Assembly (NCBI RefSeq): GCF_000831645.3
Contig: NZ_CP012559.1
Coordinates: 2,418,001-2,482,000, forward strand
Reading direction: 5' to 3'
Length of the DNA: 64,000 nt
Origin: Companilactobacillus heilongjiangensis
GTDB lineage: Bacteria > Bacillota > Bacilli > Lactobacillales > Lactobacillaceae
Part shown: in pieces, positions 2,877-63,920 of the stretch
Layout of the letters: the number at the start of each line of letters is the position of its first letter
Position numbering within the stretch: position 1 is the first letter of the stretch
Position numbers and translations under genes: made by a program
Notes under the pieces: generated by a model
The model's database searches: none
Seen by the model: the letters and a program-made list of their open reading frames with translations, nothing else
What the model was told of the DNA's origin: nothing

Positions 2877-3314
2877 CTAAATATCGTCGTCAGATAAATC
2901 ATCTGATGATTGTGTTGTATCAAATACTTTTATAGCATCAGTTGCTTCTGATATTATCTTTTTCTGCAAATCCTCATTTGATAAACTGTCTTTCGACATT
3001 GTTGCTGTTAAAGCCATTGGGAAATTCATTCCTCCCATTACCAAGCTACCTTGCAACTTGCCGTGATTGTTTAGAACGTTGCAGACAGTTGTCAGTGGAC
3101 TTCCACCAATAACATCAGCTAAAATCACAAATTCTGAATCGTCTGGAAGATTACTTACTGTATCTTCAAAACGTTTCTCCAGTGTGGAAGCTGCCTCATC
3201 TTTTTTCAAACCAACAGCAATTACTGATTTGACAGGATCTCCAGCAAACATACTCAATGTTTGTCTCAATCCTTTTGAGAAATCACCGTGACTTACAAGT
3301 AGTAAATATTTCAT
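2877..3314 (-). CDS. PTS mannose-family transporter subunit IIA
   Basis: Cytoplasmic IIA phosphocarrier (145 aa), first gene of the minus-strand PTS operon. The phosphorylation-site His is in LLLVSHGDFSKG near the N-terminus, and ILADVIGGSPLTTVCNVL is typical of the EIIA-Man fold. It ends in an acidic tail (SSDDLSDDDI) like the IIC protein. Its leader is short; the structured element at 3360-3535 lies directly upstream. The ribosome binding site is GGAAGAG before ATG at 3314. Confidence 0.9.
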   Translation of the reverse strand: MKYLLLVSHGDFSKGLRQTLSMFAGDPVKSVIAVGLKKDEAASTLEKRFEDTVSNLPDDSEFVILADVIGGSPLTTVCNVLNNHGKLQGSLVMGGMNFPMALTATMSKDSLSNEDLQKKIISEATDAIKVFDTTQSSDDLSDDDI

Positions 3315-3849
3315 TTTATCTCTTCCATTCTGTAAAACATCATTAACGTTGAATGTCTACAGGTCTGAGAACATTTACCTGCTATGCGGAACGGTCCGAG
3401 CCGAAGTGCGGTCTCGAACCTCGGTTTGAAGCCTTACCAAAGTTCGGTAAGGCTCCAAACTCGCCCGGTGGTGTAAGAGCTAAAGCTCTAACGCCACTAC
3501 CACAGCTGGTAAATATTCTCAGCCCTTCCGACCAAATCAGTATAACTAGATAACAGTTGTTCTTTTTTCTACATCTGTTCAATCCAATCAGGACTTAAAA
3601 CTTTCAACTATTAATAATTGCTTTATAGAAAACGGTAGTCGGCATCGGTAAAGAATCTGTTTTGTTCTATTCATCTACTGTGGTTTTCGATACCGTTAAG
3701 GAAGCACCCCCTTTCATTTGAGTTACTGTAGACCGCTTCTATTCATCTGGACTTAAATAAATATAACGCTTACAATGTCTATATTAATCACAGTCAAGTA
3801 GAAAGTCACCTGTACGTTGTGATTAATTATCATCGTTAGTGCTTAAGGA
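3315..3849. promoter_or_regulatory. Divergent intergenic region, man-type PTS / levR-like gene
   Basis: This 535-bp region separates the PTS operon from its regulator. It holds the folded element at 3360-3535. It also holds two copies of GGACTTAAA preceded by TCAG or TCTG (about 3586 and 3744), two copies of TTCTATTCATCT (about 3667 and 3735), and a 10-bp inverted repeat ATTAATCACA / TGTGATTAAT (3783-3792 and 3818-3827) just upstream of the regulator. These may be regulator binding sites (inference). I searched by eye for a -24/-12 sigma-54 promoter (TGGCA-N7-TGC) on both strands and found none. Confidence 0.5.
3360..3535. other. Structured intergenic element, copy A
   Basis: A long multi-stem inverted structure. 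An outer stem 3365-3379 / 3508-3522 has 14 of 15 pairs. A second stem GCTATG / CACAGC is at 3381-3386 / 3501-3506. Inside are hairpins at 3397-3416, at 3422-3438 / 3446-3463, and at 3469-3481 / 3484-3496. Architecture and several sequence blocks (CCGGTGGT, the exact CCACTACCACAGC, and CTTCCGAC at the end) are shared with copy B at 32840-33000. Strand and function are unknown; it could be a structured RNA or a small mobile repeat. Confidence 0.6.
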
Positions 3850-3858
3850 GTGATTATT

Positions 3859-32788: not shown

Positions 32789-32839
32789 ACATTTTAACTT
32801 ATTGCTAATCTAACGTGTGGTGCTAGTCAAATATGCCGT

Positions 32840-33000
32840 CTCCAAAGCTGGGAAATATTCTCAAGCTGTGCGGACGTGTTTGAAGCCCTGACACAGTCCG
32901 TCAAGTCTTCAAACACGTCCGGTGGTATAAGTACGGGAGAAATCTCCCGTACTTATACCACTACCACAGCACACAAATATCTCCCAGCTCTTCCGACTAG
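32840..33000. other. Structured intergenic element, copy B
   Basis: The outer stem is AGCTGGGAAATAT (from 32846) against 32975-32989 with one bulge; the second stem is GCTGTG / CACAGC (32865-32870 / 32965-32970). These enclose a perfect 14-bp stem (32872-32885 / 32907-32920) and a perfect 18-bp hairpin (32923-32940 / 32943-32960), giving a three-way junction. Sequence blocks and topology match copy A at 3360-3535, although stem sequences differ. A plus-strand terminator follows at 33018-33040. Confidence 0.65.
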
Positions 33001-33017
33001 TTAATCTATAAAACCGT

Positions 33018-56697: not shown

Positions 56698-59136
56698 ATG
56701 AGGTTTGAGCAATTGAAACGTGCTTCAAATACTATTGTTAGGAAAAAGCTCTATAAATCAGGTAAAAATTGGGTAGTAATGTCGAGTTTGGCATTTGTTG
56801 GTGGACTTGCTCTTTTGGGGTCTTCACAGATTAATATCGTTAAGGCTGATGTTGCTTCTGATTCTGATACTGAACAGCAGGAACAAGTAAATACTGATGA
56901 TACTAAGATACAAAGTAGTTCTGCTGGAGCTACAGGTGATGAAACCTCAGGTAACACTGAGGATAACCGTCAAGGTATTGTTAATGGTGGTAACACTACT
57001 CCATCGAACGAAAAAAATGCTAACGCTAGTGAACCAGCAGACAGTGCCTATGACAAGACACCCACTGAACCTAGCCAGACTTATGAGGCACCCGCAACAA
57101 CAAGTGGCAATATTATAGCTACTTCAAACACGGATAAAAACACTGAACCTACAACAACTTCAAGTGACATAGACAGTGGTGACGGGTGGAGAATTGATAG
57201 CAATCATGCCCTTCATTTCACATCTTCAAATACTGAGCTTAGTGGTGATCCTAACAATGGCTGGCAAGCCGATCAATATCACGTCGGTCCAGATGCAATC
57301 ACCTCAATAAGCTTTGATGATAGAGTGACTGCAGGCAGTAGTTTAAACGGATTGTTCCAAGGCCTTACAGCAATTAAATCAATTAGTGGACTAAATAACT
57401 TAGATACTAGTAAAACTACTGATTTTAGTTCTATGTTCGTTGGTTGTCAGAACTTAGAAACTGCGGATGTTTCTGGATTGCGTACTTCAGCAGGAACTAA
57501 TTTTAGTGACATGTTTGCTTCATGTTCTAAATTACAGTCTGTCGATATATCTAAGTGGGATTTATCTCACGGTACTAACTTTATAGCTATGTTTGCTGGT
57601 TGTACTTCATTAAAGTCTATCGATTTATCTAACTGGGACATGTCAAAGCTAGGTTCTGCTAATTATGGTGGTCTACTTGGCGGAACATCTTTGCAGTCAC
57701 TAAAATTAGGCTCAAAAGATAAACTAGACGGCTCTATCGGTCTACAAGATCCTGAAACATCGAATGATTCCATTAAAGGCGGTTGGACTTCTGATGACTA
57801 TAAGACAACCGATAATCCTAATGGCCTTTATAATAGTGCGGCACTCGAAGGGGATGGCCCCAATCCTAGCCTCTATGATGGTGTTAACGGTAAGGCAACT
57901 ACTTGGCAAACATATCCTAAATTCGTTAATTTTAAGGTGCAGTATGTTGATGATTCTGATCCTAAGAATCCAATAACTTATACCGATCCCACAACCTACT
58001 CAGCACGTGCTGGCTCTTCATTTACTCTTAACCAATATTTACCTGGATATAACGCGATTGACGGGAGTTTAACTGGTACAGTTCCTTCAGAAAATGGGGA
58101 TGTTATTACTTATCAAACTAAGCTTACCCCATGGGCCCCAGTCAATCTAAAAATACAAGAGAGTTATCTAGATGGCCACAAAACAAATTATGTTCAAATG
58201 CCATTGACTGTTTATACTCTTTTAAACAGCTACGATTACTCTTCAAAATTATTGAATGATGGCAAAGAATGGGCTGATGTCGATCTGGATAAATCAAAAG
58301 TTTTATATAATAGTCCCAGCGGTCCAACATTTACTGAAAAAATAAACGATTTTAAAGAATTCAAAATATCCTCAATTAACGACCTTATAAATGTGATTTT
58401 GTCTCACTCTATTGCCAATCCATATGATGAATCCGGTTCTAGGATTCTGGTAAATCCTAATTTTGCTGGAGGTTATTTTGGATTTGATATTGTTTATAAA
58501 AAAGGCGGAGTCATCCCTACCAGACCAATCCACAGTGATTCCACACCATCTTCAACAATCACAGACTTTAACCAAAACGTCGCAACCTTCGGTGATAGAC
58601 CAGCCGTTCAGGTATACAATACTGAAGGCAATACGATTGATGAGACCGTTGCACCTGATGTCGATTGGCATAGCGATAAAAAGATGTTGCTAAATGGAAT
58701 AACCTATTACAGTCTGGCAACCGACAAGTGTGTTAAATCTTCCGATGCCTATATATTCTTCGCCAATAGCGCCGATGTTAGAACCTATCAAGGCAATTAC
58801 GTTCAATTAACCGACGGCAATAATGGCAAGATTCTCAGTCGTGAATTACAAGCTGGTAGCGATTGGTATACCGATCGAATTGCAATGTTTGATGGTGAAA
58901 AATACTACCGTGTAGCTACAAGTGAATTTGTTAAAGCACCTGCAGTTTATGAATACAAAGCTGAGCCACGTGTTGTTAAGACTAATAAAAATACTGTTGT
59001 TTATGATGAATTAGGAAATACTGTTGACCTACATTTACCATTTTCTGAGTATAAGTCTGATATTGCCGTAAATATTAATGGTAATACGTATTATCGTATA
59101 GCCACTAACCTCTTTGTTCGTGCAGACAATATCTAA
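56698..59136 (+). CDS. KxYKxGKxW-signal surface protein with BspA repeats and SLAP modules
   Basis: An 812-residue surface protein. A KxYKxGKxW signal peptide (RKKLYKSGKNWVV, cleavage near VKADV) is followed by a Thr/Ser/Asn-rich region (about residues 55-155). A BspA-type DUF285 repeat block (about 200-330) contains SSMFVGCQNLETADVSG and SDMFASCSKLQSVDISKWDL. Then come a MucBP-like stretch (about 415-485) and three C-terminal SLAP-like modules (about 635-812). No LPXTG anchor is present, so attachment is presumably through the SLAP modules. Likely an adhesin. Confidence 0.8.
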   Translation: MRFEQLKRASNTIVRKKLYKSGKNWVVMSSLAFVGGLALLGSSQINIVKADVASDSDTEQQEQVNTDDTKIQSSSAGATGDETSGNTEDNRQGIVNGGNTTPSNEKNANASEPADSAYDKTPTEPSQTYEAPATTSGNIIATSNTDKNTEPTTTSSDIDSGDGWRIDSNHALHFTSSNTELSGDPNNGWQADQYHVGPDAITSISFDDRVTAGSSLNGLFQGLTAIKSISGLNNLDTSKTTDFSSMFVGCQNLETADVSGLRTSAGTNFSDMFASCSKLQSVDISKWDLSHGTNFIAMFAGCTSLKSIDLSNWDMSKLGSANYGGLLGGTSLQSLKLGSKDKLDGSIGLQDPETSNDSIKGGWTSDDYKTTDNPNGLYNSAALEGDGPNPSLYDGVNGKATTWQTYPKFVNFKVQYVDDSDPKNPITYTDPTTYSARAGSSFTLNQYLPGYNAIDGSLTGTVPSENGDVITYQTKLTPWAPVNLKIQESYLDGHKTNYVQMPLTVYTLLNSYDYSSKLLNDGKEWADVDLDKSKVLYNSPSGPTFTEKINDFKEFKISSINDLINVILSHSIANPYDESGSRILVNPNFAGGYFGFDIVYKKGGVIPTRPIHSDSTPSSTITDFNQNVATFGDRPAVQVYNTEGNTIDETVAPDVDWHSDKKMLLNGITYYSLATDKCVKSSDAYIFFANSADVRTYQGNYVQLTDGNNGKILSRELQAGSDWYTDRIAMFDGEKYYRVATSEFVKAPAVYEYKAEPRVVKTNKNTVVYDELGNTVDLHLPFSEYKSDIAVNINGNTYYRIATNLFVRADNI

Positions 59137-63327: not shown

Positions 63328-63920
63328 TTAAGCGGTATTCGTACTACTTACGGGACCCTTAAAAGGGTCCTCATATTCATGAGATATCAATTTATCCGTG
63401 ACCATATCTTTCTTTTCCTGATCACGGATGTATTTTTGTATAGTTGCTTCATTCATTCCTACAGTCGTTACGTAATACCCTTCTGCCCAAAAATGTCTGT
63501 TTCCAAATTTATATTTCAAATTTGTATGCTTATCAAACATCATCAATGCACTTTTTCCTTTTAGATATCCCATAAAACTTGCAACACTTATTTTAGGTAG
63601 AATACTTAACAACAAATGCACATGATCAGGCATCATATGACCCTCGATTATTTCAACACCTTTATATTTACAAAGCAATTTTATATAGTCTTGTAAATCA
63701 CGTCGATATTGATTATATATTATTTTTCTCCTATACTTTGGAATGAATACGATATGGTACTTACACATCCATTTGGTATGTGCAAGACTATTGAGCTTAT
63801 TCGCCACGATAGACGTCTCCTTTGTTTTTAAAATGTTTGGCTTCGACACCTACGTTTTAAAACTTATGGGGGCGTTTTCGCATAACGAATTAATGCCCAC
63901 CCGCTATGCGGGTTTTTTTT
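63255..63920 (-). mobile_element. IS200/IS605-type insertion sequence, tnpA only
   Basis: An IS200-like element; ends approximate. A hairpin AGCCAGCG / CGCTGGCT (63259-63282) with a T-run lies downstream of tnpA, preceded by GAGGCT / AGCCTC (63237-63251) and CCACCCGT / ACGGGTGG (about 63210-63228). On the other side lies CCCGC-TAT-GCGGG (63900-63912). Subterminal hairpins are what single-strand Y1 transposases recognise. No tnpB is present. Exact boundaries cannot be fixed from this copy alone. Confidence 0.55.
63328..63807 (-). CDS. tnpA: IS200/IS605 family transposase TnpA (Y1 HUH)
   Basis: A 159-residue Y1 single-strand transposase. The HUH motif is in MMPDHVHLLLSI, the catalytic Tyr in ATIQKYIRDQEKK, and GNRHFWAEGYYVTTVG is the conserved core. 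The start is GTG 63807, 9 nt after AAAGGAG, giving the usual family length; the frame open to 63849 would add 14 residues without a ribosome binding site. The gene appears intact. Confidence 0.9.
   Translation of the reverse strand: MANKLNSLAHTKWMCKYHIVFIPKYRRKIIYNQYRRDLQDYIKLLCKYKGVEIIEGHMMPDHVHLLLSILPKISVASFMGYLKGKSALMMFDKHTNLKYKFGNRHFWAEGYYVTTVGMNEATIQKYIRDQEKKDMVTDKLISHEYEDPFKGPVSSTNTA

Follow-up and report, generated by a model that had tools for sequence, protein, structure and literature searches.

A large family of structured, non-coding, and apparently mobile repeats in Companilactobacillus heilongjiangensis and other Lactobacillaceae

Several described classes of repeats share features with the element analyzed here. 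MITEs are short, non-coding, present in high copy number, and mostly intergenic, and the element resembles them in all these respects, as well as in the presence of terminal inverted repeats and target duplications in two of its subfamilies, which we denoted alpha and beta. It differs from MITEs in that a large, branched, covarying fold is kept across genera with differing terminal repeats, in the tail-to-tail arrangement of its modules, and in that no parent transposon was found in the fetched stretches. The bcr1-bcr18 repeats of the Bacillus cereus group are 100-400 bp long and have mobile features; their mobility is tied to a TTTAT motif, and bcr1 is present in up to 130 integral copies (PMC6542083), with a predicted common structure listed for this repeat (PMC2267715). 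By these descriptions, the bcr repeats are set apart from the present element, which shows 8-bp duplications of varying sequence, is present in several hundred copies, and occurs across a bacterial family. The likeness to REP/BIME elements (GTAG- and CGTC-tagged; RAYT) lies in the palindromic and intergenic character, the frequent inverted pairs, and the CCGTC start of many type I copies (PMC3733652), whereas REPs are only 20-40 bp long, compared to a module of about 180 nt here. The tag itself is inconstant in the present element, with CGTC in many copies and CGCC or other sequences in the rest. In the main text of the REP/RAYT paper, neither "Firmicutes" nor "Lactobacill" occurs (PMC3733652). 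BOX (205 copies), RUP (110 copies), and ERIC (19 copies in E. coli) are also intergenic repeats with stem-loops, but are described with fewer copies than found here and are set apart by these descriptions (PMC2267715).

We analyzed a window of 64,000 nucleotides (positions 2,418,001-2,482,000) from the 2,790,548-bp single-contig genome of Companilactobacillus heilongjiangensis that contains two copies of the element, denoted A and B. On balance, these copies are rather likely to be members of one very large, non-coding, non-autonomous (MITE-like) mobile DNA family of Lactobacillaceae. The traits of MITEs that we could find include terminal inverted repeats (alpha, beta, and the left end of copy B), target duplications (7 of 17 alpha copies; by eye in beta), and the lack of coding capacity combined with a high copy number (77 copies in 400 kb). 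A unit consists of one or two branched hairpin modules of about 180 nt, two modules standing tail-to-tail as a rule, and in two subfamilies it is bounded by 16-bp terminal inverted repeats, with target duplications of about 8 bp at a good part of the copies. The parts of the two copies in the window, all on the plus strand, are as follows.

3355-3532, plus strand: copy A, whole folded element with GTC...GAC closing pairs (model score 221.8 bits; MFE fold)
3361-3383, plus strand: copy A, 5' arm of the outer and inner stems (MFE structure)
3393-3420, plus strand: copy A, internal hairpin 1 (GAGCC...GGTCTC), absent from copy B
3422-3463, plus strand: copy A, internal hairpin 2
3467-3498, plus strand: copy A, internal hairpin 3, with a TAAA loop and the widely kept A.A mismatch
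3500-3526, plus strand: copy A, 3' arm of the inner and outer stems (MFE structure)
32813-32828, plus strand: copy B, left terminal inverted repeat ACGTGTGGTGCTAGTC
32838-32997, plus strand: copy B, whole folded element closed by GTC...GAC, hairpin 1 lost (model score 108.6 bits; MFE fold)
32871-32921, plus strand: copy B, hairpin 2 (MFE structure)
32922-32961, plus strand: copy B, hairpin 3 (MFE structure)

A sequence-only reading had described A and B as a diverged pair of folded elements with a common topology, in which the blocks CCGGTGGT, CCACTACCACAGC, and CTTCCGAC are conserved. This description holds: the three blocks are present in both copies, and both copies fold far below their shuffled versions (copy A, MFE of -82.8 kcal/mol, with shuffles averaging -48.1, z = -8.0; copy B, folded as DNA, -53.5, with shuffles averaging -14.4, z = -13.9; 0 of 200 shuffles as low in each case). 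The outer stem and the inner junction are present in both, with three internal hairpins in A and two in B. The positions given earlier were roughly right, with the exact ends falling at 3355-3532 rather than 3360-3535 for A and at 32838-32997 rather than 32840-33000 for B. The hairpin missing from copy B is retained by the beta subfamily, to which this copy belongs. Without hairpin 1, copy B (window 32830-33008) has a single, long, continuous hairpin 2, so that the deletion kept the fold. The right terminal repeat and most of the 3' tail were not seen in copy B, and neither terminal repeats nor a target duplication were seen in copy A. Under the best explanation, copies without visible terminal repeats, such as copy A, would be old insertions.

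The element is abundant in its own genome. A blastn-type search returned, besides copy A itself, at least 39 near-full copies with 86-92% identity. A covariance model, R1, made from 31 copies (A, B, and 29 more; 59 pairs), yielded at least 150 matches, all with E below 1e-30, copy B not being among those listed. R1 does recover A and B when applied to the window, although both belong to its own seed. In an unbiased sample of 20 evenly spaced 20-kb stretches (400 kb), 77 full copies remained after opposite-strand echoes, matches cut by the stretch ends, and matches below 86 bits were dropped, which extrapolates to about 540 copies per genome, or about 3.5% of the chromosome. A second match set, with 113 copies, was cleared of echoes and of cut and weak matches in the same manner. 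The per-genome copy numbers from the model scans (R1 in the own genome, the relatives, and the family; R2, described below, in the genus and the family) are lower bounds, with 150, 25, 8, 74, and 6 candidates scored per genome, respectively. The modules are about 180 nt long and form units of about 0.3-0.6 kb without coding capacity. One of the 20 sampled stretches, L120, contained no copies. The window itself is copy-poor, with 2 copies in 64 kb compared to about 12 expected from the genome-wide sample.

The family extends well beyond this species. R1 matched 25 of the 100 genomes of relatives and 55 of the 301 family genomes, from 8 of 40 genera. A second covariance model, R2, made from ten divergent copies that all come from other genomes, recovered both B (55.4 bits) and A (44.2 bits) from a seed of other species only; it matched 34 of the 36 Companilactobacillus genomes (E up to 1e-5) and 119 of the 397 sampled Lactobacillaceae genomes, from 14 of 40 genera (E of 1e-6). 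The only two of the 36 genomes without an R2 match at E up to 1e-5 were G007 (2.5 Mb) and G034 (1.5 Mb). In a pattern search with one hairpin, all matches listed (80 of at least 120) came from Companilactobacillus, including C. huachuanensis, C. nantensis, C. insicii, C. tucceti, C. nodensis, C. mishanensis, C. kedongensis, and C. hulinensis. No good match to the element was found in plasmids or in phages. The earlier statement that the fold corresponds to no known riboswitch agrees with the Rfam scan that had been proposed along with it: no family scored above its curated threshold on either strand of the window, and near copy A there were sub-threshold matches only. A literature search, mostly outside subscription journals, brought up no recognised description of such a repeat family. 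The proposed covariance-model search across Lactobacillaceae thus found both further copies and covariation in related genomes, and no exact match to a known family emerged, these being the three points on which the sequence-only reading could have fallen. The family is real, large, structured, and non-coding, apparently unnamed, and behaves as mobile DNA.

The stems vary in a concerted manner, as had been proposed from copies A and B alone. Across the 31 copies, 98.4% of the 1,819 stem cells are paired, and 21 of the 59 pairs change on both sides. When the partner is shifted by 1-3 columns as a control, pairing drops to 37-44%, and the covariation score falls from 0.160 to 0.036 or less. Cells deviating from the most frequent pair fall into three groups: 92 with both letters altered, 9 with a single letter altered but still forming a standard pair, and 29 that are unpaired. 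In other genera, most stem letters are different, yet most of the copies shown keep the outer stem, the junction, and, together with its A.A mismatch and A-rich loop, the last hairpin.

Marks of mobility are clearest in the alpha subfamily, as seen in the genome of the sister species (G010), where the stretches were selected around known copies. Alpha units carry 16-bp terminal inverted repeats that are CTRAAGGTTGAAAGTT-like and are 317-333 bp long in 12 of the 17 copies measured. Perfect 8-bp target duplications lie exactly at both ends of 7 of the 17 copies, and five more have 7- or 9-bp duplications by eye. The right end, with up to 3 mismatches allowed, has 299 matches in the G010 genome, compared to 1 for the backward control. 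The ends of the beta subfamily, which includes copy B, are related to those of alpha (ACGTGTGGTGCTAGTT-like), and the layout is the same, a module followed by a 3' tail of about 120 bp, with a repeat at either end. The duplication TAATTAAT is exact at L111, and duplications are clear at some other beta copies, in each case by eye. Mobility is well supported for alpha and fairly supported for beta.

Empty sites in relatives, which the sequence-only reading had called for, were sought by comparison with the sister species. Among 17 copies of the own genome located in intervals comparable with the sister species, 10 have a same-orientation copy there, 3 have only a copy in the opposite orientation, and 4 have none. 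These last four represent three sites, one of them with a possible decayed remnant. The 10 shared same-orientation copies are 49-95% identical, five of them only 49-72%, and recent movement is thus not shown for these. Intergenic sequences have diverged so far between the two species that most junctions could not be placed exactly. For copy A itself, an empty site was set aside as a line of evidence: the neighbouring regulator was matched in 10 of the 36 genus genomes (own included), and outside the own genome these matches are at 33-35% identity.

The modules are predominantly arranged tail-to-tail. This is the case for 19 of 25 pairs of neighbours within 700 bp in the own sample, where the spacers of neighbour pairs look unrelated, for 27 of 33 such pairs in the sister species, and for all 6 pairs among the matches listed from three further genomes (G003, G023, and G031). 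In the genus denoted g15, all 14 loci with two copies show this arrangement, these loci having been chosen around copies or their ends. The complete unit of this genus is a module pair enclosed by TGGCCGCCTTACCGTTCGC-like inverted repeats; most pairs measured span about 460-620 bp, with one of 294 bp. The end pattern, with up to 2 mismatches, has 119 and 115 matches in two genomes, compared to 1 and 0 for the control. For the g15 units, the terminal repeats are present, and a target duplication was not seen.

The units of the family would be moved by a transposase of the cut-and-paste (DDE) type that is encoded elsewhere. In the fetched stretches, no autonomous transposon with the same ends turned up. 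Of the 19 frames of at least 100 aa that lie between distant alpha ends in the sister species, 16 were scanned (all except L136:2616-3134, L136:3135-3581, and L141:15868-16230), and none of these is a transposase. A candidate parent transposon in g15 (genome G267), a 2,071-bp interval between ends, was rejected, its two frames encoding an rRNA methylase and a PAP2 protein. At L325:1597-3529 in genome G055, the gene for a 560-aa DDE transposase (Pfam DDE_Tnp_1, DUF772), which we take to be IS1182-like, adjoins a copy and splits a second module on the minus strand; when co-folded, the two halves re-form the complete shape, and the insertion point falls in the loop of hairpin 3. Given this location, the transposase gene looks like an insertion sequence that entered the module, and this enzyme was rejected as the parent, also because 29 of the 30 loci of its relatives have no module, the only one within 1.5 kb being that of G055 itself. 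Relatives of this transposase are encoded in 61 of the 397 genomes, the own genome lacking any (E up to 1e-40). The single case suggests that a hairpin loop of the element may serve as an insertion target. G007, which lacks module matches, has a relative of the same transposase in three copies.

The mismatches within the stems bear on whether the fold is read as RNA or as DNA. In 108 copies from the own genome, G.T and A.C account for 64 and 178, respectively, of 6,845 stem cells, and in 102 copies from the sister species, for 64 and 94 of 6,325; among sporadic mismatches, there are 31 G.T and 69 A.C (20 and 28 by distinct column types). The rarity of G.T (about 1%), together with the higher frequency of A.C, argues against a plus-strand RNA and points to a structure at the DNA level. 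A plus-strand structured RNA is disfavored also in view of the G.U fraction in 19 tRNAs from the fetched sequences (26 of 431 pairs, about 6%), a control in which the ARAGORN bracket output may omit A.C pairs by design. Tolerance of G-U pairs is thus not apparent on the plus strand of the aligned copies. The earlier interpretation, that a structured element of RNA or DNA is under selection or has expanded, is borne out by the very high copy number, the covariation, and the mobility marks in all but a plus-strand RNA, for which G-T pairs are not enriched in the stems and there is no orientation bias toward transcription. When the copies are read on the minus strand, the mismatches favor G.U over A.C (178 to 64 and 94 to 64; 69 to 31 for sporadic ones), so that a modest G-U tolerance is possible there, and different genera keep the same loop letters and fixed mismatches, as might be the case for a structured small RNA, or an mRNA leader or tail element, that is spread by transposition and is seen by selection as RNA and not as DNA. 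We consider such an RNA unlikely given that the share of these pairs is only 1.5-2.6%, below the 6% G.U of the tRNA control, with a ratio of only 28 to 20 by distinct column types; that 79 copies lack an orientation bias toward transcription, 23 lying between divergent genes, 19 between convergent genes, 16 co-directional with tandem genes, and 14 antisense to them, with 5 inside a frame and 2 at an edge; that promoter-like sites near A and B are not above chance; and that Rfam yields no match on either strand. A DNA-level role of the fold appears to be the likelier reading, though not a proven one. The complementarity of the stems might also result mainly from a copying process, such as template switching in hairpins or swaps of whole hairpins between copies, rather than from selection. 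The arms do change jointly, with few intermediates, and in one pair of orthologous copies (L110:14362-14565 and L124:1740-1936; 88% identical overall), the two arms of one hairpin have changed in concert, suggesting that hairpins are exchangeable as modules. Copying should erase mismatches, yet in most copies of the own sample they persist at fixed places, A.C (81 of 105) and C.T (87 of 98) in hairpin 2 and T.G (71 of 107) and A.A (87 of 106) in hairpin 3, the A.A mismatch also in copies from other genera. This persistence argues against a pure correction of one arm by the other, and we hold copying as the main source of the complementarity to be very improbable.

Alternatives to a cut-and-paste MITE-like family concern the enzyme and the benefit to the host. 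The inverted pairs, the hairpins, and CGTC near the 5' end of many copies would fit large elements that resemble REP/BIME repeats and are mobilized in single-stranded form by a Y1 (IS200/RAYT) transposase, and the genome contains two Y1 transposase genes, an IS200-like one (PF01797) in the window (63328-63849, minus strand) and another at 2171490-2171846 of the genome. We give this scenario next to no credence: neither Y1 gene has a model match within 1.5 kb, there is no replichore strand bias (P of 0.36 and 0.33, with the origin assumed at base 1), and the target duplications and terminal inverted repeats of the family count against such an enzyme, neither being, to our knowledge, expected of Y1 transposases. 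The element could, alternatively, be useful to the host, as a boundary, a nucleoid-protein site, or a terminator or stabiliser, and be kept at gene borders by selection, with transposition only spreading it. In line with such a use, the 5' end is the end nearer the gene in 62 of 72 copies, including 21 of 26 singletons (7 of the 79 copies, 5 inside an open frame and 2 at stretch edges, were left out of the gene-context and 5'-end tests); 20 of the 79 copies have terminator-like T-runs no more than 40 nt from the 5' end, compared to 2 of 79 at the 3' end; 10 of the 17 compared positions are common with the sister species even though five of these copies are poorly alike; and nearly the whole genus carries the element. 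The asymmetry of the singletons is, however, about the effect that we estimate for the 120-bp 3' tail, and the 5' end is as often next to a gene start (37) as to a gene end (35). With only 2 copies in the 64 kb of the window and none at threshold in the 2.5 Mb of G007, the element is dispensable there, and we regard maintenance by host benefit as quite unlikely.

Under the preferred reading, that of a MITE-like mobile DNA family, the module would be kept as a DNA fold, hairpin or cruciform, and be recognized by a protein through its shape and a few fixed letters and mismatches, most likely as a part of transposition or of its control. A more far-reaching possibility, which we put forward tentatively and consider doubtful, is that the family exemplifies a class of mobile elements with an identity that would reside in DNA shape rather than in sequence: paired, tail-to-tail, cloverleaf-like DNA folds could be read by a dedicated protein as hairpins or cruciforms, so that stems and terminal repeats could drift freely from genus to genus without loss of mobility, the element coming to occupy several percent of a chromosome. 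If the fold is read as DNA, the family would offer hundreds of natural covarying examples for the study of protein recognition of branched DNA, as well as a test of whether covariation must mean RNA. The presence of hundreds of copies per genome, in the 119 matched genomes of a food-relevant family and without an Rfam match, has a practical bearing on ncRNA annotation, genome assembly, and rep-PCR typing of food strains.

The neighbourhoods of individual copies provided several minor observations. Copy B is flanked by the gene of a short-chain dehydrogenase and by a frame of 99 aa that has no Pfam match. Copy A has on one side a mannose-type PTS operon (EIIA, EIIB) and on the other an activator of the sigma-54 type that contains a PRD domain; a sigma-54 site for this operon was considered and dropped, the window containing 42 matches compared to 42.8 by chance, with none in 3314-3850. 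At L110:14027-14217, an upstream T-box/terminator fragment recurs in inverted orientation just downstream of the copy; a flanking inverted duplication was rejected as a general mark, this being the one clear case among 105 copies. The window also encodes, at 56698-59136 on the plus strand, a surface protein of 812 aa that combines a KxYKxGKxW signal with a DUF285 stretch and an S-layer domain.
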